From: Chitinophaga niabensis
Lineage (GTDB): Bacteria; Bacteroidota; Bacteroidia; Chitinophagales; Chitinophagaceae
Reading direction: 5' to 3'
Length of the DNA stretch: 64,000 nt
Assembly (NCBI GenBank): GCA_017849435.1
Contig: JAFIGY010000004.1
Span: forward strand, 61,875 to 125,874
Shown here: one piece after another, positions 32,127 through 44,900 of the stretch
How positions within the stretch are numbered: the first letter of the stretch is position 1
Layout: each line of letters starts with the position of its first letter
Translations under genes and position numbers: made by a program
Notes under the pieces: model-generated
Told to the model about the DNA's origin: nothing
Databases searched by the model: none
Seen by the model: only the letters and a program-made list of their open reading frames with translations

Positions 32127-32858
32127 ATGAAGCTGGATATACTCGCAATTGCCGCCCATCCGGACGATGTGGAACTCTCCTGTGCCGGAACCCTTATGGT
32201 GCACGCATTACAAGGTATGAAAGTAGGGGTGGTGGATCTCACCCAGGGAGAACTTGGAACCCGCGGTACGCCCGAAGGCCGGTTAAAGGAAGCGCAGGAT
32301 GCTGCACAACTGATGGGACTGGAGATAAGGGAAAATCTCGGACTGGCGGACGGATTCTTTCAAAACACCCGGGAAGACCAGATGGCCGTGATCCGTGTCA
32401 TCCGCAAGTTCCGGCCGGACATTATACTGGCGAACGCGATCGACGACAGGCATCCTGATCATGGTCGCGCAGCGCGACTCATTGCAGACAGCTGTTTTCT
32501 GGCGGGGCTCCGCAAGATAGAAACATTCGACAGCAACGGGCAACCGCAAATCGCCTGGCGTCCCAAACAGGTATTTCATTTCCTGCAGGATCGTTTCCAT
32601 CAGCCGGATTTTGTAGTGGATATTTCCACAGTGATCGACCGGAAGATTGAAAGCATCAAATGCTTCAAAAGCCAGTTCCTCGCAGATAAAGATCATGAGC
32701 CGCAAACCTATATCTCATCTCCCGAATTCTTTGACAGTGTGATCTATCGCTCCAAGATGCTGGGGAAAATGGTGGGCGTAACGCATGCAGAAGGCTATAC
32801 TTCCGCGAAGATGCTGGGAGTGCGGAGCCTGAAGGATTTCATCAACGAAACTACCTGA
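32127..32858 (+). CDS. bshB1: Bacillithiol biosynthesis deacetylase BshB1
   Basis: 243 residues, LmbE/PIG-L zinc deacetylase family. The metal motif AHPDDVE is at 10-16 (His11, Asp13, Asp14) and HPDH at 109-112. BshB1 removes acetate from N-acetylglucosaminyl malate in the bacillithiol pathway. The sequence GELGTRGTPEGR and the C-terminal ESIKCFKSQFLADKD..EPQTYISSP pattern support BshB1 instead of other LmbE proteins. Bacillithiol use fits the YfiT/BstA-like protein at 17654. Confidence 0.92.
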   Translation: MKLDILAIAAHPDDVELSCAGTLMVHALQGMKVGVVDLTQGELGTRGTPEGRLKEAQDAAQLMGLEIRENLGLADGFFQNTREDQMAVIRVIRKFRPDIILANAIDDRHPDHGRAARLIADSCFLAGLRKIETFDSNGQPQIAWRPKQVFHFLQDRFHQPDFVVDISTVIDRKIESIKCFKSQFLADKDHEPQTYISSPEFFDSVIYRSKMLGKMVGVTHAEGYTSAKMLGVRSLKDFINETT

Positions 32859-32868
32859 TCTTTATAAG

Positions 32869-32903
32869 GCCGGAACAGTATAGACTGCTTCCGGCTTTTT
32901 TAT
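32869..32903 (+). terminator. Terminator of bshB1, possibly shared with the convergent sigma gene
   Basis: Stem GCCGGAA-CAG (32869-32878) pairs with CTG-TTCCGGC (32885-32895), with one bulged C, and is followed by a run of seven T. The T-run reaches the stop codon of the convergent sigma-factor gene. Confidence 0.75.
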
Positions 32904-33484
32904 TTCAGAAGGATCCATATCCATATACCCACGGAAATATCTTTCAGCAATGTCCGCAAATGATGCAGGGCATGTGTCAGCTGATTCTCCACTGTTCTTT
33001 TAGATATCCCCAGTTTCCCCGCGATCTGATCATTGGTAAGATGTTGGCGCCGGCTCAGAATAAAGATCTCGCGACAACGTTTGGGCAAAGTGTGCAGGAA
33101 TTCTTCCACACTGTTTTCCAGTTCGCGGTAGCGCAGGTTTTCATCTCCTTCATTTCCACTGGTATGCTGACTGTAAGCTTCCAGGTTCTCCGGATGTGTT
33201 ACCGGCTGGGCTTTTGCACTCTTGAGATATTTATAGACATGATATCTTCCGGCTGCACGCAGATAAGCAGAGAAGGAAAGGATGCGCAGATGATCGCGTT
33301 TCAGCCAGATGTTGAGGAAGATGTCGTGCGTGATCTCCTTACTCGCCCCCTCGTCCCGCAAATACCTGTAAACCGTTGTATACACCTGCTCCCAGTAACG
33401 ATCGAAGAAAACGGCAAAAGCGTTATGATCGCCATTTAGAATGGAATCCCATAAAACGTGGTCAGTTGGATAATGCCGGTGCAT
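32900..33484 (-). CDS. ECF-type RNA polymerase sigma factor (PUL-associated)
   Basis: 194 residues from ATG 33484; an upstream frame to 33553 adds a poor leader. Sigma region 2 covers ~20-90 (NAFAVFFDRYWEQVYTTVYR, ASKEITHDIFLNIW) and region 4 covers ~130-180 (LPKRCREIFILSRRQHLTND, GKLGISKRTVENQL). The C-terminal hydrophobic tail (VGIWIWILL) is common in the Bacteroidota PUL sigma group. It is divergent from the FecR gene 116 bases away, so the pair likely governs the SusCD-DUF3823-enzyme operon to the right. Confidence 0.93.
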   Translation of the reverse strand: MHRHYPTDHVLWDSILNGDHNAFAVFFDRYWEQVYTTVYRYLRDEGASKEITHDIFLNIWLKRDHLRILSFSAYLRAAGRYHVYKYLKSAKAQPVTHPENLEAYSQHTSGNEGDENLRYRELENSVEEFLHTLPKRCREIFILSRRQHLTNDQIAGKLGISKRTVENQLTHALHHLRTLLKDISVGIWIWILLK

Positions 33485-33600
33485 AGAAAGGATGGTAGTT
33501 AAAGGTAGAAACTTTGTACTGGATTTCCAATGCAGAAATTTTTTTGTTTTCATGTGTGTGCTGCTCCAAAAAAGTCTCTTACTCTATATAAACTGCTCGA

Positions 33601-34734
33601 ATGACTCGCGAAGAGTATCTCTCATTATATGAAAAATTCCTGGCAGGCAACTGCTCTGAAGAGGAAAAGGAACTTCTGGCCAATTATATGGACGAGTTCC
33701 GGCTGGAGCAGCATTCGTGGGAAGAAGGAATGGGAGATCATGAAGCGGTGAAAACGGAGATATATGAAAGGCTGCAGGCATCGGTTCAACCCGCACGTCA
33801 GGCTCGCCTTCGCTTCATCACAAGGGCAGCCGCAGCTGTTCTGGCGATAGTAGCAGCAGGAACATTATTGCAAATAGTCTTTCATCCATTTTTCCATAAA
33901 AAAAATGAGCCATCCGTAGCAACCGTGCCTTCTCCTTCCATTACTCCCGGGGGTAACAAGGCTACGTTAACACTCGCGAATGGACAGGTAATTGTGCTGG
34001 ACAGTACCAGGAGCGGGGTGCTCGCCATGCAGAACGGTGTGGAAGTAAGACAGACAGGAGAAGGACAGGTGATATATGGTGATCTGCAATCGCTGACCGG
34101 CGCATCCGCTTTCAATACCATTTCCACGCCGATCGGCGGCCAGTTCCAGGTAACATTGGAAGATGGCACGAAAGTATGGCTGAATGCCACATCATCGCTG
34201 CGTTTCCCTGCAAGGTTCAGCGCAAATGAAAGAGCGGTACAGATCACCGGTGAAGCATATTTCGAAGTGACGAAGAACGAAGCGAAACCTTTCCGCGTAA
34301 CATTCAACGGCAATATCGTAACGGTGCTCGGCACACATTTTAATATCATGGCCTATCCGGATGAAGCCCGAAGTAAGGTGACCCTGCTGGAAGGTGCGGT
34401 GGACGTCAGTAATCAAAGCAGTCATCAGGTGTTGAAACCCGGCATGCAGGCGGTGATCGGCGACCTCATAACGGTCCGCAAGGCCAATACGGAAGAAGCC
34501 GTGGCCTGGAAGAACGGTTACTTTGTATTTGATCAGGAAAACATTCAAAGCATCATGCGAAAAATAGCCCGGTGGTACGATGTAACGGTCGTATATGAAG
34601 GAGATATGAGGGGGAGGGAATTCTCGGGAACGATTTCACGTTTTAAAAATGTATCCGAAGTGCTGGACATGCTCGAACTCACAGAAAGTGTCCATTTTCA
34701 TCTGCAAGGAAAAAACATAAAAGTTACCCCATAA
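33601..34734 (+). CDS. FecR-family anti-sigma regulator
   Basis: 377 residues, inner-membrane. The cytosolic N-terminus (~1-70) should bind the sigma factor encoded divergently. One membrane helix (~71-95) follows. The periplasmic FecR domain (~140-230; STPIGGQFQVTLEDGTKVWLNA) and DUF4974 (~308-375) sense the STN domain of the SusC protein encoded 44 bases downstream. This is the normal layout for cell-surface signalling: bound ligand shifts STN, FecR then releases or activates sigma. Confidence 0.93.
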   Translation: MTREEYLSLYEKFLAGNCSEEEKELLANYMDEFRLEQHSWEEGMGDHEAVKTEIYERLQASVQPARQARLRFITRAAAAVLAIVAAGTLLQIVFHPFFHKKNEPSVATVPSPSITPGGNKATLTLANGQVIVLDSTRSGVLAMQNGVEVRQTGEGQVIYGDLQSLTGASAFNTISTPIGGQFQVTLEDGTKVWLNATSSLRFPARFSANERAVQITGEAYFEVTKNEAKPFRVTFNGNIVTVLGTHFNIMAYPDEARSKVTLLEGAVDVSNQSSHQVLKPGMQAVIGDLITVRKANTEEAVAWKNGYFVFDQENIQSIMRKIARWYDVTVVYEGDMRGREFSGTISRFKNVSEVLDMLELTESVHFHLQGKNIKVTP

Positions 34735-34778
34735 TTAACGTAAGCCAAAACTAGTACATAAACCAAAATCAGAGCTGT

Positions 34779-37700
34779 ATGCAACGCTACCTCAACAACA
34801 AGTTCCGGGGGTATGGGAAACTGATGTCTATATTTTGCATGACCATCTTTATGCAGATCAGCGCATCAGGCTTTGCCCAAAAGATTACCCTCTCCGTAAA
34901 AGACGCTTCTATGGAAAGCGTGCTATCGGAATTGAAAAAACAAAGCGGGTACAACATCCTCTACAACACGCGTGCGCTGGAAGGTGCGAAACCCGTTAAC
35001 CTGAACCTGAAAGGCTCTTCGCTGGATGAAGCGCTGAAACGGGTTTTCTGGGAGCAGCCGCTGGACTACATCGTGAAAGCGAATACGATCGTAGTGAAAC
35101 CAAGATCGGAAGTAACGGCCGTGATCACCGTGAAAGGCCGGGTCACGGACGAGAAAGGCAATCCGCTCCCCGGCGTAAGTGTGGCAGTGAAAGGATCGAA
35201 CAAAGGCACTGCTACGGATGCGAACGGGATGTATAGTATCACTGTGCCGGAAGGTACGGAAACACTGGTCTTCTCCTATGTTGGTTATGCTTCGAAAGAG
35301 GTGCCGGTCAACAAACGCACAACCATCGACATACTGCTACAGGTGGAAAACAAGTCGCTGGAAGCAGTAGTAGTGGTGGGATATGGTGTGCAGAAGAGAG
35401 TCTCGCTCACCGGCGCGGTATCTGCAGTTCGCGGGGATGAGATCGTTACTACCAAAAATGAGAACGTGCTGAACATGTTGACCGGTAAAGTGGCTGGTTT
35501 GCGTGTGGTACAGAATACAGCAGAACCGGGCTCATTCAACAACGCGTTCGATATTCGCGGGCTGGGCGGACCACTCATCGTTATTGACGGTATCCCCCGC
35601 GATAACATCACCCGTCTCGATCCGAATGATATTGAAAGCATCTCCGTTTTGAAAGACGCGTCCGCAGCGGTGTATGGGGTAAGGGCCGCTAACGGTGTGG
35701 TATTGGTAACCACCAAGAAAGGCCGCAAGGGTGCATTGGAACTGAACTACTCCGGGAACTACACCTGGCAGGTACCTTCCGGTTTGCCAAGATCGCTGGA
35801 TGCTATCGGGTATATGACGCTGGTGAATGAAAAACTGATGCACAACGTGAATGGTGGACGAAAAGCTTATACCGATGCCGATTTTGCAGCATACAGGAAT
35901 GGTACGAAGACGAGTACGGACTGGTATACGCCTTCCATCCGGAATGTGGTGCCGCAGATGCAGCATAATCTGAGCGCCACCGGTGGCAATGAAAATATCA
36001 GCTATTTCCTCAGCCTGGGATATACATCGCAGGAGGGTTTCCTGCGGAGCGGCGATCTGAACTACAAACGGTACAATGTTCGCTCCAACATCACCAGCAA
36101 GGTCACAAAAGATCTGACAGTGGATCTGAACCTCAACGGTATCTTCGATCAGAAGAACCAACCCTACCAGGATTCCTGGTGGATCATCCGTTCCTTCTGG
36201 CGGCAAAACCCCCTCGAACCGGTATACGCTAACAACAACCCGGATTACCTCGCCCACACGCCGGTGGACGGCACCAACCCGGTAGCCATGTCCAACCAGG
36301 CTACATCCGGATACAAGATATTCTACAACCGCTGGTTCCAGTCGTCTGTAAGCCTTACCTGGCAAGTACCCTACGTGGAAGGTCTGAAAGCGAAAGCGCT
36401 CTTCAGCTACGATTACAACACCGCTAACAATAAATTCTACCAGCGGCAGTATAATCAATATGTTTATGATGCTTCTTCCAATACCTACACCCCCAAAGCA
36501 CAACAATCCCCCTCTAATGTGAGAAGGGAATTCTTTGAGAAGCCAAACTCATTGTTCCAGCTTTCCGTGAACTACGACAGGAGCTTCCTCAATGGCAAGC
36601 ACAACGTGAATGCCCTGTTACTGTACGAGAACAGCGTTCGCAAAGGAGATAACTTCTATGCCGTGCGGGAGCTCTCTCTGCCGGTAGATCAGCTGCTGGC
36701 GGGTAACAGTCTCAACCAGGTGGGTAACATGAATGTGGGCGACCTCTACAAAGACGCTAACCGCGCATTGGTAGGCAGGTTGAACTACGCCTTCAAATCG
36801 AAATACCTGGCAGAGTTCAGCTTCAGAAGGGATGGCTCTTCTAAATTCCCGACATCGAAGCAATTCGGGTTCTTCCCCTCCGCATCCCTCGGATGGCGGA
36901 TCTCGGAAGAAAGTTTCTGGAAAGATACCCGGGTACTTGCCTTTATCGATAACCTGAAGCTGCGTGGCTCTTATGGCGAATTGGGCGATGACCGCGCTTC
37001 CAGTTACCAGTTCATTACAGGTTATTCATACCCCGCCGGCGGCTCGAATAACCAGCTGCCGCCGGGATCAGTGTTTGACGGCAATTTCGTGAACTCGCTG
37101 GAGAGCAAAGGCATTCCCAATCCCAATATCACCTGGTACGTTGCCAAAACAGTAGACGTGGGGATCGATATCGAAGCCTGGAAAGGATTGCTCGGCATCT
37201 CCCTCGACCTTTTCCGCCGCGATCGCACAGGTCTGCTGGCCACCCGCGCTTTGAGCCTGCCCGGTGTTGTAGGCGCCAACCTGCCACAGGAGAACCTCAA
37301 CAGCGATATGACGAGGGGAATAGATTTTGAACTGAATCACCGGAACACGATCGGTGAAGTGAACTACTACGCCAAATTCATCTTCGGCTTCGCCCGCACG
37401 GAGAACAAATATATAGAACGCTCCAAAGCAGGTAACTCTTACGAGAACTGGCGGAATAATTCCAATAACCGCTATAACAACGCGAAATGGGGATACGGAT
37501 CAGGCGGACGTTTCAATTCATACAACGATATCCTGAACAGCAACGTGTTTGTGCCAAGAGGAACAGTGGTGGGAGATTACCGGTATGAAGACTGGAACGG
37601 GGATGGCATCATCGATGACCACGATATACATCCCATTGCATTCACCGGCACCCCGCTGGTAACCTACGGCCTCACGCTGGGCGCCGACTATAAAGGTATT

Positions 37701-38159
37701 GACCTGAACGTGCTCATCCAGGGCAGCGGGATGGTGAACCAGGGCTATGTGGAACAGCTCCGGGAATCCCTCTGGGGCGGCGGTAGCGGTCTTGCCATGT
37801 TCCTCGACCGCTGGCATCCTGCCGACCCTAATGCAGATCCTTATGATCCGAACACTCAATGGATCGCCGGTAAGTATGGATACACCGGTTCCAACCCGGA
37901 TGAAAATTCCGCCTTCAATATTCAGAACGCGGCCTATGTGCGCCTGAAAAGCATAGAGCTCGGTTATTCCCTGCCGAAAGGGATCGTGAGGAGGATAGGG
38001 ATTAAAGGGGCGAGGGTGTTTGTGAACGGATACAACATCGTCACCATCTCCGATGTGAAATTCGTAGACCCGGAACATCCTACCGAATCCAACCGCGCCT
38101 ACGGATACCTCTATCCGCTCAATAAAACCTATTCCGCTGGCTTAAATGTTAAATTCTGA
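34779..38159 (+). CDS. SusC-type TonB-dependent transporter with STN signalling domain
   Basis: 1126 residues. Signal peptide (cut near GFAQ, ~34). An STN domain (~36-107; ITLSVKDASMESVLSELKKQ, SLDEALKRVF) distinguishes it from the other SusC proteins and pairs with the FecR upstream. A carboxypeptidase-like sandwich (~117-195), the SusC linker AVVVVGYGVQKRVSL, plug (~210-320; IVIDGIPRDNITRLDP, LKDASAAVYGVRAANGVVLV) and the barrel follow, ending in SAGLNVKF. It should import the same glycan whose presence it reports. Confidence 0.96.
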   Translation: MQRYLNNKFRGYGKLMSIFCMTIFMQISASGFAQKITLSVKDASMESVLSELKKQSGYNILYNTRALEGAKPVNLNLKGSSLDEALKRVFWEQPLDYIVKANTIVVKPRSEVTAVITVKGRVTDEKGNPLPGVSVAVKGSNKGTATDANGMYSITVPEGTETLVFSYVGYASKEVPVNKRTTIDILLQVENKSLEAVVVVGYGVQKRVSLTGAVSAVRGDEIVTTKNENVLNMLTGKVAGLRVVQNTAEPGSFNNAFDIRGLGGPLIVIDGIPRDNITRLDPNDIESISVLKDASAAVYGVRAANGVVLVTTKKGRKGALELNYSGNYTWQVPSGLPRSLDAIGYMTLVNEKLMHNVNGGRKAYTDADFAAYRNGTKTSTDWYTPSIRNVVPQMQHNLSATGGNENISYFLSLGYTSQEGFLRSGDLNYKRYNVRSNITSKVTKDLTVDLNLNGIFDQKNQPYQDSWWIIRSFWRQNPLEPVYANNNPDYLAHTPVDGTNPVAMSNQATSGYKIFYNRWFQSSVSLTWQVPYVEGLKAKALFSYDYNTANNKFYQRQYNQYVYDASSNTYTPKAQQSPSNVRREFFEKPNSLFQLSVNYDRSFLNGKHNVNALLLYENSVRKGDNFYAVRELSLPVDQLLAGNSLNQVGNMNVGDLYKDANRALVGRLNYAFKSKYLAEFSFRRDGSSKFPTSKQFGFFPSASLGWRISEESFWKDTRVLAFIDNLKLRGSYGELGDDRASSYQFITGYSYPAGGSNNQLPPGSVFDGNFVNSLESKGIPNPNITWYVAKTVDVGIDIEAWKGLLGISLDLFRRDRTGLLATRALSLPGVVGANLPQENLNSDMTRGIDFELNHRNTIGEVNYYAKFIFGFARTENKYIERSKAGNSYENWRNNSNNRYNNAKWGYGSGGRFNSYNDILNSNVFVPRGTVVGDYRYEDWNGDGIIDDHDIHPIAFTGTPLVTYGLTLGADYKGIDLNVLIQGSGMVNQGYVEQLRESLWGGGSGLAMFLDRWHPADPNADPYDPNTQWIAGKYGYTGSNPDENSAFNIQNAAYVRLKSIELGYSLPKGIVRRIGIKGARVFVNGYNIVTISDVKFVDPEHPTESNRAYGYLYPLNKTYSAGLNVKF

Positions 38160-38163
38160 TACA

Positions 38164-40080
38164 ATGAAACGCAAAATATACACGCTGGTCGCGGTACTCG
38201 CATATTGCCTGACCGCCTGCACCAAGCTCGATATTCCGCCGATGAACGTGATACAGGACAAAGATGTGTTCACCAGCGAAGGCGGGATCAGGATCTATAT
38301 GGCACGTGCGTACAGCGAGCTGCCGCTCGAAGATTTCCGCTATTCGCAGACAAGGGGTCTGAATTTCTTCTGGATCATCAGTCCGCCCAGTGCCAACACC
38401 GGCGAAGCGCTCAGCCGTGATCTCGGCAGTTCCACCACCGAAACGTTCAATCCGGCCTATTGGGAACTGGGCTACAGGCTCATCCGGGAAATGAACTACT
38501 TCATGCAAACATTGCCGCAGTATGCCAAAAATTTTCAGGACGCCGATGTGAAACACTGGCTGGGGGAAGCGCGTTTCATTCGCGCTGTAACCTATATGGC
38601 ACTCGTAAAACGCTATGGTGGCGTACCGATTGTGGATAAAGTATTGCAGTACCCGGATCAGAAGCCCGAGGAACTCAAGATACCACGGGCATCAGAAGAA
38701 GCGGTGTACGACTTCATTGCAGCGGATCTGGATTATGCTTACAACAATATGCAGGCTACCAGCGTATCCGGCCGTGCGAACAAATACACTGCCGCCGCAT
38801 TCAAGTCAAGGGCGATGGTATATGCCGGATCTATCGCAAAATATAATCAGGTAACGCTCTTCGACGGCAGTCAGCAACGCCTCTGTGGTATTCCCGCCAC
38901 AAAAGCAAATACCTATTTCAAAGCCGCCTATGATGCAGCATTGCTGCTGGAAGGCAAATACAGCCTGTATAAAAAAGCCTGGGCGGCAGGAGACAAACAG
39001 GCGCAGATGCAGAATTACATCAACATGTTCTTTGATGCCGGTAGTCCGGAAAACATCCTCATCAAAGGATATCATTATCCTGAATCCGTGCACGGCTACG
39101 ATGCCTACAATGTGCCAAGGCAGCTGATGGGAGGGAACGGATATTCCGCGGAAGTGAATCCCACCCTGAACTTTGTGGAGATGTTCGATGGTTTGCCGAA
39201 GAACCCCGATGGCACCATCCAGACCCTCGACGCTTCCGGCAAATACATCATGTATAACAATACCATGGACCTTTTCGCCAATGCGGAACCCCGGCTCAGA
39301 GCCACGGTGATCGTTCCCGGCGATGAGTTCAAGAAAGAGAAGATCGAAATATATCGCGGAATTTATACCGGCGATGCTACAAACGGTATCAGCCGCCTGC
39401 TTCCGGACGGTTCTACTTCCAACTATCCTACCGCTAATATCGTTGCTTCTCCCAACGGTAATCAAACACCCTACAAACTGCCGGACGGTACCCTCAGGAA
39501 TCCCGCAGGCAAAAGCGGTGTGTTCACTGCTGACGGTACCTGCGCGATCTCCGGATTTACGGTAAGAAAATACCTCGTGCCGGATAAACCAACCGCGGAA
39601 GTGCTGGAAAACAGGGCGGACCAGACCTGGATAGAAATGCGCTACGCGGAAGTGTTGCTGAACCGTGCCGAAGCGGCGTATGAATTGTATGCGGCAGGAC
39701 AAACAGGCGCTAATTATTTGCAGGATGCGTTCAATGCCGTCAACCAGATCCGTGACAGGGCAGGGGCCAATCTGCTGGCTACCACTGCCGACCTGAACAG
39801 CATCAATATCGTTCGGAATGAAAGAAGAAAAGAGCTCGCCTTCGAAAACAAGACCTGGTGGGACCTTAAACGCTGGCGGATCATTGACAAGGAACAGAAC
39901 GGCACCTTGTATCGTGTGCTCATGCCTTTCTACGTAGCACAGACCGGCAAGTATTTCTTCGATGCCCGTACCGATGAAAGGAATAACCGCTACACTTTTG
40001 ATACACGCTGGTATTATCAACAGATACCGGCGGATCAGATATCCAAGAGCCAGAACCTTGTGCAGAACCTGGGTTATTAA
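38164..40080 (+). CDS. SusD/RagB family lipoprotein of the PUL
   Basis: 638 residues. ATG 38164 (4 bases after the susC stop) gives a lipobox LTAC (Cys19); the frame also has an earlier ATG inside susC. SusD signatures are LDIPPMNVIQDKDVFTSE near the N-terminus, YFDA..AR.. in the middle, AEVLLNRAEAAYEL (~500) and NIVRNERRKELAFENKTWWDLKRW (~565-590). It is longer than the usual ~520-580 residues, with an insert around residues 390-460. It is the surface lid for the SusC just before it. Confidence 0.95.
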   Translation: MKRKIYTLVAVLAYCLTACTKLDIPPMNVIQDKDVFTSEGGIRIYMARAYSELPLEDFRYSQTRGLNFFWIISPPSANTGEALSRDLGSSTTETFNPAYWELGYRLIREMNYFMQTLPQYAKNFQDADVKHWLGEARFIRAVTYMALVKRYGGVPIVDKVLQYPDQKPEELKIPRASEEAVYDFIAADLDYAYNNMQATSVSGRANKYTAAAFKSRAMVYAGSIAKYNQVTLFDGSQQRLCGIPATKANTYFKAAYDAALLLEGKYSLYKKAWAAGDKQAQMQNYINMFFDAGSPENILIKGYHYPESVHGYDAYNVPRQLMGGNGYSAEVNPTLNFVEMFDGLPKNPDGTIQTLDASGKYIMYNNTMDLFANAEPRLRATVIVPGDEFKKEKIEIYRGIYTGDATNGISRLLPDGSTSNYPTANIVASPNGNQTPYKLPDGTLRNPAGKSGVFTADGTCAISGFTVRKYLVPDKPTAEVLENRADQTWIEMRYAEVLLNRAEAAYELYAAGQTGANYLQDAFNAVNQIRDRAGANLLATTADLNSINIVRNERRKELAFENKTWWDLKRWRIIDKEQNGTLYRVLMPFYVAQTGKYFFDARTDERNNRYTFDTRWYYQQIPADQISKSQNLVQNLGY

Positions 40081-40101
40081 TTCATGTAAAGCGTATTTTT
40101 T

Positions 40102-40863
40102 ATGAAAAGACAATTATATCTCGCAGGATTATGCTTCGCATTATTGTTGAACAACGCCTGCTCCAAAAAATATGATAACTATCCCGAGCCGGACGCTACA
40201 CTGACCGGTAGTATCACAGACCTGGCTACGGGAAAACCAGTGCAAACGGAAGCCGGCAGCAATGGTGCCCGCATTCGCCTGGATGAACTGAGCTGGAGCG
40301 CCACGCCAACACCCTACTATTTTTACGCCATGCAGGACGGTACTTATCGAAATACCAAGATATTTTCAGCGAAATACCGCATTTCCGTAGAAGGCGCTTT
40401 TGTGCCGCTTATTCAATATGATGGCGCGGGGAATATTACGGTGGATAAAAGTCAGACGCTGGACGTCAAAGGTTCTGCCAAAGTGGATTTCAAAGTAGAG
40501 CCTTTCCTGAATGTAGACTGGGTATCGGATCCGGTGTATAACAGTGCCGACAGTACGATTACGGTGAAAGTGAAGTTCACCCGGGGCAACAGCAATCCTT
40601 CCTTCCAGAACAACGTAACAGATGTATTCCTCTTCGTGAATGCCACAACGTATGTAGGTAACAATAACTACGATAACCGGTATTCCAACAAGATCAGCTA
40701 TGGCGGTACTGCCGGGAACAGCCAGATTGGGCAGACGATCACCATTACAACACGTGACAAGCTACCCGGTAAAAGGAGCTATTTTATCAGAGTGGGCGCC
40801 AGGGTAGATTATGGGTTGAAGTATTACAACTATACAGATATTAAAACCGTTGCCGTACCTTAA
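40102..40863 (+). CDS. DUF3823 family lipoprotein
   Basis: 253 residues with lipobox NNAC (Cys20). The mature part begins SKKYDNYPEPDATLTGSITD, which is the DUF3823 start, followed by a beta-rich domain of the Ig/transthyretin-like type and a second beta domain (~130-250). DUF3823 proteins are PUL companions of SusCD pairs and are thought to bind ligand on the cell surface; this is inferred. Spacing to SusD is 21 bases. Confidence 0.85.
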   Translation: MKRQLYLAGLCFALLLNNACSKKYDNYPEPDATLTGSITDLATGKPVQTEAGSNGARIRLDELSWSATPTPYYFYAMQDGTYRNTKIFSAKYRISVEGAFVPLIQYDGAGNITVDKSQTLDVKGSAKVDFKVEPFLNVDWVSDPVYNSADSTITVKVKFTRGNSNPSFQNNVTDVFLFVNATTYVGNNNYDNRYSNKISYGGTAGNSQIGQTITITTRDKLPGKRSYFIRVGARVDYGLKYYNYTDIKTVAVP

Positions 40864-40881
40864 CGCTATATCAACCGACTG

Positions 40882-43035
40882 ATGAAAAAAACGTTTATCC
40901 TTTCCTGTTGCCTGTATGCCGGTATGGTGCAGGCGCAGCAGAAAACCGCTTTTCAAACGGGTAGCCCCTGGATCCCCGAGATTGACATAAGGTCCGATAT
41001 TGCCATTATATATGGCGCCAACGACCGTCCGGGTCTCACTTTCGCAGAACGCGTGAAATCCTGGCGGGATCATGGGTATCAGACGCATTTTATGACCGGC
41101 ATTGCCTGGGGGCAATACGGAGATTATTTTTTCGGGAAATGGGATGGGAAGAACCATCTCGGGGTAGGACAGGTAGACAGGAAAGGAGATACCATCTGGC
41201 ACGGAAAGAACATTCCGTATATCGTGCCTGAGCAGTCTTTCGTTGAATACATGCAAACGGCCGTCATTAAAAAAGTGATCGATGCGGGAATTACTTCCAT
41301 CTACCTCGAAGAGCCGGAATTCTGGGCGCGGGCCGGGTACAGCGAAGTGTTTAAGGCGGAATGGCAGCGTTATTACGGCTTTCCCTGGAGGCCGCAGCAT
41401 GAATCTCCCAACAACACTTATCTCTCCAGCAAGCTCAAATACCATCTTTACTATCATGCCATTAAGGAAGTATCTGCTTACGCGAAAACATATGGTAAAA
41501 GCAAAGGTCTGGATGTGAAGGTTTATATTCCTACGCATTCGCTGGTAAACTATTCCTCCTGGCGGATCGTAAGCCCCGAGGCCAGCCTGGCTTCCTTACC
41601 CGGTATTGATGGATACATCGCGCAGGTCTGGACGGGAACGGCCCGGGAACCCACGTTCTTCAATGGCGTAAGCAGGGAAAGAGTATTTGAGAACGCGTTC
41701 CTGGAATATGGTTCCATGATCTCCATGACCGCTCCCACAAAGCGGAAGATCTTTTTACTGACGGATCCGATCGAGGACTGGCCGCGGGACTGGAGCGATT
41801 ACAAAAGGAACTACGAGGCTACGTTCACGGCCAAGCTGCTATACCCCATGGTAGCGGATTATGAGGTAATGCCCTGGCCCGAACGCATCTACACCCGCCC
41901 TTACAAGATCGCGCACAGTGATTCCAGCGTCCTGATCCCGAAGTTCTATGCCACGCAAATGCAGATCATGGTCAATGCGCTGAATGATATGCCGGTATCG
42001 CAGAATCGGGTTTCCGGCCCTGGCGGCATCGGAGTGTTGATGGGGAATTCGCTGATGTTCCAGCGTTTCCCCACGCATGATGGATTCGAAGATCCCCGGT
42101 TCTCCAACTTCTACGGACAAACCCTGCCGCTCGTTAAACGGGGCGTACCAGTGGAAACAGTGCACATGGAAAACCTTTCTTTTGATGCTACGTTGAAAAA
42201 CATCCGCGTACTGGTGATGAGCTACTCCAACATGAAGCCGATGTCCCCGGATGTGCATCAGCACCTCGCGGCCTGGGTGAAAAAAGGAGGTGTGCTGATC
42301 TATTGCGGCAAGGATGATGATCCTTACCAGTCCGTGATGGAATGGTGGAATACAAAAGGGATGCAATACAAAGCCCCGTCCGCACACCTTTTCGAGTTAC
42401 TGGGCGTAAACCCTGACGCGGGAAAGCAGCCTTTCAGGGTGGGGAAAGGTACGGTGTATGTAGTGCGGCAGAATCCCAAAGAGTTTGTGATGGAAACCAA
42501 TGGCGATGCGGCGTATGTGAATCTGCTGAAGAATGCTTACGAGCGCAGCGCAAAAGCAGGAAAACTTCAGTTTAAGAATAATTTTTATGTATCTAGAGGG
42601 CCTTATGTTATTGTGTCTGTAATGGATGAAAGCGAGGGTGCGCAGCCTTATGTGGTCAAAGGTCCGGTGATCGATCTGTTTGATCATAAACTGCCGGTGC
42701 TGGCGGAGAAGACGGTTGCGACCGGTACGCAGGCCCTGCTGTATGATCTCGGACGGTTAAAGGGCAGAACAAAGCCGGGAGTGCTGGCAGCGGCGGCAAG
42801 GGTGTATGATGAGAAGACGGGGCCGGACAGTTATACGTTTGTGGTGAAGGGACCGGCTAAAACCACCAATGCCATGCGCGTATGGCTGCCGCAGAAGCCG
42901 CGGGCGACGGTCATTACAGACAGTAGGGGAGGGAACGTGGCGGATGCGGAGGTGTTGTGGGATGAGGGATCACATACGGGTTACTTCGAGTTTGGAAATA
43001 GTCCGGAGGGGATTAAAGTCAGTATTTCCTGGTAA
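40882..43035 (+). CDS. Large secreted protein with glycosidase-like plan, family not recognised
   Basis: 717 residues. A signal peptide is cut near MVQAQ (~19). The N-terminal ~340 residues look like a TIM-barrel: alternating strand motifs, an acidic cluster on one strand (Glu143, Glu144, Glu146 in SIYLEEPEFW), and later strand-end acids (Asp295, Glu299, Glu328, Glu334). Residues ~382-480 (GVLMGNS..., IRVLVMSYSN, VKKGGVLIYCGKDDDP) resemble the glutamine-amidotransferase-like domain of GH42-type beta-galactosidases. The C-terminus (~640-717) is beta-sandwich-like. It is the last gene of the PUL, so it is a likely enzyme for the imported glycan. Catalytic residues are guesses. Confidence 0.7.
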   Translation: MKKTFILSCCLYAGMVQAQQKTAFQTGSPWIPEIDIRSDIAIIYGANDRPGLTFAERVKSWRDHGYQTHFMTGIAWGQYGDYFFGKWDGKNHLGVGQVDRKGDTIWHGKNIPYIVPEQSFVEYMQTAVIKKVIDAGITSIYLEEPEFWARAGYSEVFKAEWQRYYGFPWRPQHESPNNTYLSSKLKYHLYYHAIKEVSAYAKTYGKSKGLDVKVYIPTHSLVNYSSWRIVSPEASLASLPGIDGYIAQVWTGTAREPTFFNGVSRERVFENAFLEYGSMISMTAPTKRKIFLLTDPIEDWPRDWSDYKRNYEATFTAKLLYPMVADYEVMPWPERIYTRPYKIAHSDSSVLIPKFYATQMQIMVNALNDMPVSQNRVSGPGGIGVLMGNSLMFQRFPTHDGFEDPRFSNFYGQTLPLVKRGVPVETVHMENLSFDATLKNIRVLVMSYSNMKPMSPDVHQHLAAWVKKGGVLIYCGKDDDPYQSVMEWWNTKGMQYKAPSAHLFELLGVNPDAGKQPFRVGKGTVYVVRQNPKEFVMETNGDAAYVNLLKNAYERSAKAGKLQFKNNFYVSRGPYVIVSVMDESEGAQPYVVKGPVIDLFDHKLPVLAEKTVATGTQALLYDLGRLKGRTKPGVLAAAARVYDEKTGPDSYTFVVKGPAKTTNAMRVWLPQKPRATVITDSRGGNVADAEVLWDEGSHTGYFEFGNSPEGIKVSISW

Positions 43036-43631: not shown

Positions 43632-43683
43632 CGGCGGCTTTACCGATCAGCTTAGCGTGAAATCAATAAATCGACATAGTATC

Positions 43684-44238
43684 ATGAAAAATGCAGTTTT
43701 GTCCGTAGGGGCACAGTTCCCCGGGTTTGCTAAAAAGGCAGTTGTATCGATCGAAAAAGGGAAGGAATTTTACGAGATCTCTTCCGAAGAAATTAAAGGT
43801 TCCGGCAAATGGATGGTGATGTTCTGGTGGCCTAAGGACTTTACGTTTGTTTGTCCTACCGAGATCGCCGAATTCAACAAACACTACCAGGATTTTGCTG
43901 ACCGTGACGCCATCCTCATCGGCGCTTCCACGGATTCCGAGTTTGTGCATCTCGCCTGGAGGAAAGATCATGAAGACCTCCGCGGCCTTCAGTTCCCCAT
44001 GCTGGCAGATACTTCCAAGAGCCTCGCTGACGAGCTCGGTATTCTGCAATCCGACGAGAAGATCGCTTACCGAGCTACTTTCGTGGTAGACCCTCAGGGC
44101 ATCGTACGCTGGACTTCCGTATACGACCTCTCCGTAGGCCGTAACGTGAAAGAAGTGATCCGTGTGCTGGATGCGCTGCAAACAGATGAGCTCTGCCCCT
44201 GCAACTGGCAGAAAGGCGAAGCTACCCTGCAGGCTTAA
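43684..44238 (+). CDS. ahpC: Peroxiredoxin AhpC, AhpD-linked type
   Basis: 184 residues. The peroxidatic Cys57 lies in TFVCPTE. The C-terminal resolving pair is Cys171 and Cys173 in ELCPCNW, the arrangement of actinobacterial AhpC that is reduced by AhpD and not by AhpF. It reduces H2O2 and organic hydroperoxides in the cytosol. I prefer ATG 43684 to a GTG at 43657. ahpD follows, but a strong terminator stands between them. Confidence 0.94.
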   Translation: MKNAVLSVGAQFPGFAKKAVVSIEKGKEFYEISSEEIKGSGKWMVMFWWPKDFTFVCPTEIAEFNKHYQDFADRDAILIGASTDSEFVHLAWRKDHEDLRGLQFPMLADTSKSLADELGILQSDEKIAYRATFVVDPQGIVRWTSVYDLSVGRNVKEVIRVLDALQTDELCPCNWQKGEATLQA

Positions 44239-44256
44239 TCGAATCCTATTCTCACA

Positions 44257-44292
44257 GGGAGCGGGCAGGAAGCTTGCCCGCTCCCTCTTTTT
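44257..44292 (+). terminator. Strong terminator between ahpC and ahpD
   Basis: A perfect 11-bp stem GGGAGCGGGCA (44257-44267) / TGCCCGCTCCC (44275-44285), 7-base loop, then TCTTTTT. It should largely uncouple ahpD from the ahpC promoter unless read through. Confidence 0.9.
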
Positions 44293-44312
44293 AAACCTCT
44301 AATGCCATAACG

Positions 44313-44900
44313 ATGTTTGCTACCAATACGCAGGATACTGCAAAACAATTACTGGAGACGGTAGGACTTTCCACCGCAGAAGTGCCGGCTAAGCTCGCTG
44401 CCCTTGCAGCTATGGATGCCCGTTACCTGAAAGATCTGAAGATCAATGTCACCAACGCCCTTGAAGTGGCCACGCTCTCCAAAAAAGAAGCGAACCTGCT
44501 GGGACTGGCTGTAGCGGTCAATGAGAAGCTGCCTGCCCTTCAACAAGGCTTTGAACAGCTGGCTGTTGCCACCGGCGCCACGGAAAAGGAAATTGCGGAA
44601 GTAGTGAGCTGCACTTCCCTGATGAATGCCAATAATGTGTTTTACCGTTTCCGGCATTTTGTGGGGAAAGAATTTTATAATACAGCCCCTGCGGGCATCC
44701 GGATGAGCATCATGGCCAATCCGGTGATCGGGAAGGAGTTTTTTGAGCTGGTGAGCCTGGTCGTGTCTGCCCTGAACGGTTGCGAAATGTGCGTAACCTC
44801 CCACGAGGCCGCCGTGCTGCAACATGGCAGTGAGCCACAGCGGATACTGGATGCAGTGCGACTGGGGGCCGTGGTGAAAAGTCTGGGTGTACTGCTCTGA
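44313..44900 (+). CDS. ahpD: Alkylhydroperoxidase AhpD-type protein
   Basis: 195 residues. The redox motif is CEMC (Cys157, Cys160) with His164 in VTSHEA, the AhpD proton-relay pattern. AhpD reduces AhpC, linking it to lipoyl-bearing proteins in mycobacteria. The all-helical fold and length match that family. It starts 74 bases after ahpC; a terminator lies between, and no clear promoter is seen in front of it. Confidence 0.93.
   Translation: MFATNTQDTAKQLLETVGLSTAEVPAKLAALAAMDARYLKDLKINVTNALEVATLSKKEANLLGLAVAVNEKLPALQQGFEQLAVATGATEKEIAEVVSCTSLMNANNVFYRFRHFVGKEFYNTAPAGIRMSIMANPVIGKEFFELVSLVVSALNGCEMCVTSHEAAVLQHGSEPQRILDAVRLGAVVKSLGVLL

Follow-up and report, generated by a model that had tools for sequence, protein, structure and literature searches.

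The window analysed here is a stretch of 64,000 nucleotides from Chitinophaga niabensis (assembly GCA_017849435.1, contig JAFIGY010000004.1, positions 61,875 to 125,874 of the forward strand). At its positions 32900-43035 lies a Sus-type polysaccharide utilisation locus (PUL) under the control of an extracytoplasmic function (ECF) sigma factor and FecR, in which the SusC/SusD pair, the sigma factor, FecR and the STN extension are all present, and the last gene of which encodes a protein of 717 amino acids (aa). Judged from its predicted fold and its gene neighbours, this protein probably represents a family of sugar-cutting enzymes, and it is the main subject of the present study. In a scan of the window proteins against Pfam and NCBIfam, the layout proposed by an earlier, sequence-only reading of this DNA (divergent sigma and FecR genes, followed by STN-SusC, SusD and DUF3823) was borne out, and all the gene positions it gave were correct:

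32900-33553, minus strand: divergent ECF sigma factor of the Bacteroidota Sig70 type (TIGR02985, E 4.4e-37; Sigma70_r4_2, E 6e-13)
33601-34734, plus strand: FecR-type anti-sigma factor (FecR, E 7.9e-19; FecR_C, E 3.3e-20)
34779-38159, plus strand: STN-SusC TonB-dependent transporter with STN and Plug domains (TIGR04056, E 1.3e-255; STN, E 1.6e-9)
38146-40080, plus strand: SusD-like lipoprotein (SusD_RagB, E 5.3e-41; SusD-like_3, E 1.6e-17)
40102-40863, plus strand: DUF3823 protein, a probable surface glycan-binding lipoprotein (DUF3823, E 1.1e-11; DUF3823_C, E 1.6e-11)
40882-43035, plus strand: 717-aa protein, a predicted periplasmic glycosidase (AlphaFold2 model with a GH42/GH164-like fold, GH denoting glycoside hydrolase family; neither a family model nor a PDB sequence matched significantly)

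Going by the starts of the open reading frames (ORFs), the plus-strand genes from FecR through SusC, SusD and DUF3823 to the 717-aa gene are separated by 44, -14, 21 and 18 bp, an operon-like spacing.

The 717-aa ORF is not a chance frame: scanning genome contigs confirmed 116 relatives, which match it over all or nearly all of its length, and its columns are well conserved. In an alignment of 33 sequences (32 of the 80 fetched loci plus the window), with 59-75% identity to the window protein, mean column identity was 68% over the whole length and 82% over the barrel fragment alone. The best 80 relatives were kept, two of them (L009 and L019) from one assembly. They are labelled Bacteroidota, except for one metagenome-assembled genome (MAG) labelled Williamsia (L042), the locus of which nevertheless contains SusC, SusD-like, DUF3823 and GH92 genes. 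Matches occurred in 17 of 79 genomes of the genus, and across the phylum in 4 of 395 genomes, the window's own included, all at no less than 1096 bits, with no weaker intermediates among those 395 at E<=0.001. Viral contigs gave 15 pattern matches for distant relatives, none of which was confirmed, and of 72,556 plasmid records only one matched, a Paenibacillus cellulositrophicus plasmid whose homologue is 40-42% identical and bears the annotation 'hypothetical protein'. It is this strong conservation, in 80 fetched loci, in many Bacteroidota species and in a Paenibacillus 'hypothetical protein', that gives the family its interest. As a side observation, two genomes contain, besides an intact copy, a short relic of the family gene that is interrupted by a stop codon (G479:C46 and G408:C1), and in a third, one of the 17 genomes of the genus with a match, the gene stands as two pieces on two contigs (G407:C8/C4), which has the appearance of duplication and decay, or of an assembly break.

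The 717-aa protein, for which the AlphaFold2 model has a pLDDT (predicted local distance difference test) of 82, is divided as follows, all on the plus strand:

40882-40938: type I signal peptide, residues 1-19, recognised by eye
40939-42006: barrel domain, about residues 20-375, with limits set by eye, supported by the strands and helices of the full and barrel-only models and by the barrel-only fold matches
41308-41319: Glu143-Glu144-Pro-Glu146, candidate acid/base, after the strand read as strand 4, invariant in 33/33 sequences and in Paenibacillus
41764-41778: Asp295-Pro-Ile-Glu298-Asp299, candidate nucleophile or base, after the strand read as strand 7, invariant in 33/33 sequences and in Paenibacillus
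42007-42561: GATase-like (trimerisation-type) middle domain, about residues 376-560, with weak DUF4350 and GLMA_2nd matches and within the GH42/GH164 alignment
42562-43032: C-terminal beta region, about residues 561-717, with 13 strands in the model

The signal peptide, barrel, GATase-like domain and beta-rich C-terminus that the sequence-only reading had described are thus seen by eye, predicted by the model or, for the GATase-like domain, hinted at by DUF4350. Fold comparison, the check which that reading had itself suggested together with structure prediction, returned a GH42/GH164-like fold with a predicted barrel, and a match to a non-glycosidase family did not appear. The best fold matches of the full model were three-domain enzymes of GH42 and GH164, among them the GH42 beta-galactosidase of Thermus A4 (1kwg), which shares the plan of barrel, GATase-like domain and beta domain, and the GH164 beta-mannosidase Bs164 (6t5o, 6t7g), built on the same plan; the structural alignments to both families stop at model residues 622-625, and the final ~90 residues lie beyond them. 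The barrel-only model was weaker than the full one (pLDDT 72; predicted template modelling score 0.76). Its fold matches were mixed, comprising PgaB and beta-amylase (which we take to be GH153 and GH14, respectively), GH35, GH156 and GH42, yet the 50 listed were all barrel glycosidases by title; GH164 was not among them, an absence that we do not count as evidence. With the hydrolase domain of PgaB/BpsB, with Cwp19 and with the GH168 fucanase, the likeness extends over the barrel only. As for membership of clan GH-A, which the sequence-only reading had also entertained, invariant acids follow both predicted strands, but only seven or six barrel strands are clear and the barrel-only matches include PgaB, beta-amylase, GH35 and GH156, so that the clan was not established.

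By sequence, the 717-aa protein had no significant match in Pfam, NCBIfam or the PDB sequences. Searched individually, the 33 members together touched 12 Pfam families at E<=1, and the only glycosidase family among them was a weak GLMA_2nd (5 of 33 members, best E 0.13); none of PgaB/GH153, Cwp19 and the GH168 fucanase was among these 12 families or among the PDB matches. DUF4350 matched residues 417-481 of the window protein (E 0.028) and, with a cut-off of E<=1, 12 of the 33 members, the lowest value being 0.001, and it is on these weak DUF4350 and GLMA_2nd matches that the GATase-like character of the middle domain is based. We took Zona_CL1 (2 of 33 members, best E 6.7e-4), Redoxin (2 of 33, best E 0.0082) and the remaining weak Pfam matches, with E above 0.01, as chance. 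Against the PDB sequence set, all that phmmer and a profile of the 33 members gave at E<=10 looked like chance, antibody light chains among it, with best E values of 0.033 and 0.12, and kinship to a PDB chain by sequence was dropped. In the open-access papers that the searches covered, judged on titles and abstract openings, no description of the family was found.

The candidate catalytic residues are acids that follow two predicted strands. A strand precedes Glu143/144/146 at 139-141 in the full model and at 121-125 of the fragment (residues 139-143) in the barrel-only model, and another precedes Asp295/Glu298/Asp299 at 289-295 and at fragment positions 274-277 (292-295), respectively; all six acids are invariant in the 33 sequences and in the Paenibacillus homologue. 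The numbers 4 and 7 are a reading of strand order in the models. Of the residues put forward in the sequence-only reading, Glu143/144/146 are invariant, 'Glu299' is an aspartate with Glu298 adjacent, and Glu334, a real residue, is not conserved (27 Glu, 5 Asp and 1 Pro of 33; Trp in Paenibacillus) and was dropped as a catalytic candidate. In GH42 the catalytic residues are an Asn-Glu pair after strand 4 and a Glu after strand 7, and by strand position the 717-aa protein appears to differ from that family in its Glu-Glu and Asp, besides its ~90 extra C-terminal residues and the DUF3823/SusCD or ABC (ATP-binding cassette) context of its genes. Bs164 uses Glu160 on strand 4, preceded by Asn159, and Glu297 on strand 7 (PMC7105311). 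With our strand register, if it is correct, the 717-aa family would carry Glu-Glu in place of the Asn-Glu of GH164, and an Asp where the nucleophile is expected; a different acid close by may be used.

Could the protein simply belong to GH42 or GH164 as a remote relative, with Glu/Glu retaining chemistry on beta-galactosides or beta-mannosides? The shared three-domain plan and the best fold matches speak for it, and Bs164 itself was first reported as an alpha-mannosidase and only later shown to be a beta-mannosidase (PMC7105311). Set against this, no GH42 Pfam model matched any of the 33 members at E<=1, a profile comparison with 12 GH42 proteins of the same genus gave a probability of 1.2% (a weak test, both profiles being shallow), and neither the GH42 chains in the PDB set nor Bs164, whose inclusion we assume from the scope of that set, were found at E<=10 with phmmer or the profile of 33; moreover, the key acids appear different. 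Direct GH42 membership was accordingly dropped, and we give the distant-member explanation only a slim chance. The predicted fold suggests a GH42/GH164-type way of working, membership in either family being without sequence support. Separately, a frame of ~606 aa outside the window (G000:C20:38837-39247) gave a partial GH42 match (E 3.7e-7), and ~600-aa frames with such partial matches recur in the genus, possibly as another GH42-like group.

The gene neighbourhood was surveyed in 81 loci (the 80 fetched and the window), with ~9 kb on each side where available; neighbouring ORFs were called with a simple longest-ORF script and grouped by linkage clustering, and all counts are lower bounds because several loci are cut by contig ends. 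The SusC (1, 12), SusD-like (3, 37, 47) and DUF3823 (2) clusters were labelled by the window's members (1, 2, 3) or by size and place (12, 37, 47), and for clusters 4 (GH92) and 8/26 (GH76) every member was examined, 43 of 43 and 13 of 13 being confirmed. Clusters 1, 3 and 2 occurred in 56, 47 and 48 of the 81 loci, all three together in 46, and the DUF3823 cluster lies directly upstream of the family gene in 47. GH92 is nearby in 37 loci, in 35 of them among the next two co-directional genes; GH76 is present in 13, and one or the other in 42. The GH92 neighbours belong to Mucilaginibacter (27 of the 37 loci), Flavisolibacter, Parafilimonas, Pontibacter, Arcticibacter and several MAGs, and GH76 neighbours were found also in Echinicola and Algoriphagus. 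A GH38 gene adjoins the family gene in one locus (L065), and a ROK kinase cluster (one member checked) occurs in five. For comparison, of the 56 SusC genes scored in the window's genome, 2 have a GH92 no more than 9 kb away, a figure from one genome and from 56 of 136 first-look candidates; the family loci, being related, are not independent. The statement of the sequence-only reading that the locus has no other carbohydrate-active enzyme is correct for the six genes that were scanned, while in other genera GH92 or GH76 stands beside the family gene.

The frequent pairing with GH92 and GH76 points to mannose-rich glycans, e.g., fungal mannan or N-glycans. Bacteroidota draw on GH92, GH76 and GH38 when they utilise alpha-mannan (PMC9213526), and the family loci, with GH92 in 37 of 81, GH76 in 13 and GH38 in one, resemble in this respect the fungal alpha-mannan PULs of B. 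thetaiotaomicron and Salegentibacter. The window locus differs from these in having none of the three, and the available part of that source mentions no enzyme of the 717-aa type (PMC9213526).

In Paenibacillus, the family gene comes directly after a solute-binding protein gene, before which stand two ABC permeases and a GntR/LacI-type regulator, and its product has no obvious signal peptide at its N-terminus (by eye). In both phyla, then, the family gene neighbours those for a sugar importer; its product would be periplasmic in one and, on this single Paenibacillus record, apparently cytoplasmic in the other, as expected for an enzyme acting on an imported oligosaccharide.

Taken with the fold, this leads us to regard it as quite probable that the 717-aa protein works in the periplasm as a glycoside hydrolase, that its sequence family is one outside Pfam and NCBIfam, with a GH42/GH164-like architecture, and that it acts by exo release from an imported oligosaccharide. 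The earlier reading is borne out in part: its central suggestion, a GH42-like three-domain glycosidase of an unrecognised sequence family serving the SusCD glycan, drew support from the model, the fold searches and the gene context in two phyla. In the proposed sequence of events, the oligosaccharide would be bound and taken up by SusC, SusD and the DUF3823 lipoprotein, FecR would pass the occupied state of SusC on to the sigma factor, and the enzyme would split off a sugar, probably in exo fashion, with Glu144 (or Glu143) after strand 4 and Asp295 (or Glu298/Asp299) after strand 7 as its putative acids. That the substrate contains mannose is a serious possibility, a little short of an even chance. 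We are distinctly more doubtful of a bolder version, namely a new GH family common to Bacteroidota and Paenibacillus that has kept the three-domain architecture around a rebuilt catalytic centre (Glu-Glu, Asp, one barrel strand reduced) and cleaves a mannose-containing linkage left by GH92/GH76. Should the protein be a glycosidase, it would define a family and explain the sole enzyme of minimal SusCD-DUF3823 loci.

An enzyme rearranging imported oligosaccharides instead of hydrolysing them, i.e., a transglycosidase or a phosphorylase-like enzyme, is about as improbable as the distant GH42/GH164 member: the second Foldseek match is indeed a beta-1,2-glucosyltransferase (7vl3), and lacto-N-biose phosphorylase is also listed, but hydrolases share the same fold, so the fold cannot decide between them, and the GH92/GH76 neighbours suggest a degradative pathway. 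Slightly less probable again is that the protein has no catalytic activity and serves the Sus apparatus by binding glycans or as a scaffold. The non-canonical look of the residues at the expected catalytic positions and the tight coupling of the gene to DUF3823 may be cited for this; against it stand the better conservation of the barrel than of the whole protein and the strand-end acids, which vary neither between the two phyla nor between their two unrelated import systems.

Several observations weigh against the glycoside hydrolase that we prefer, or against its link to mannose. The barrel shows seven strands in the full model (read by eye) and six of at least 3 residues in the barrel-only model, the second half of which is weak (pLDDT blocks of 42-59, one of 71, over fragment residues 201-310). 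The strand-7 Asp and the strand-4 Glu-Glu depart from the Glu297 and Asn159-Glu160 given for GH164 (PMC7105311). As for context, 14 of the 81 loci are without the SusC, SusD, DUF3823, GH92 and GH76 clusters, at least two of these being short contigs, and in L078 the three neighbours scanned of 13 are not carbohydrate-uptake genes. Neither the window locus nor any of the 6 loci labelled Chitinophaga has GH92 or GH76 nearby, the 7 GH92 genes of the window's genome sit on other contigs, and the Paenibacillus stretch, as annotated, contains neither; the mannose link therefore rests on other genera.

Some further genes of these loci are worth recording. Cluster 5, present in 24 of 81 loci, stands upstream of SusC in many loci of Mucilaginibacter; the one member scanned (L006:377-2914, 845 aa) has Kelch repeats, a C-terminal BTAD-like match and a hydrophobic segment near residue 557, features that would perhaps fit a membrane-spanning SARP-type regulator replacing sigma/FecR. 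Cluster 10 (8 loci) is a putative lipoprotein of 339 aa between the family gene and GH92, the one member scanned (L011:11222-12241) having no Pfam, NCBIfam or PDB sequence match, and cluster 13 (5 loci), close to the family gene in loci without the SusD-DUF3823 set, is a PF10091 glycoamylase-type protein, again from one member (L043:7490-8842). The family search of the window's own genome missed DUF3823 despite its hmmscan E of 1.1e-11, and a loose first look can evidently miss short diverged domains. Within the window, a PIG-L type deacetylase (32127-32858, E 8.1e-23), presumably resembling the deacetylase of bacillithiol biosynthesis, precedes the sigma gene, and a relation to the locus is improbable. 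The AhpC/TSA peroxiredoxin and the carboxymuconolactone decarboxylase-type protein encoded downstream of the locus, at 43657-44900, are probably an unrelated peroxide-defence pair.

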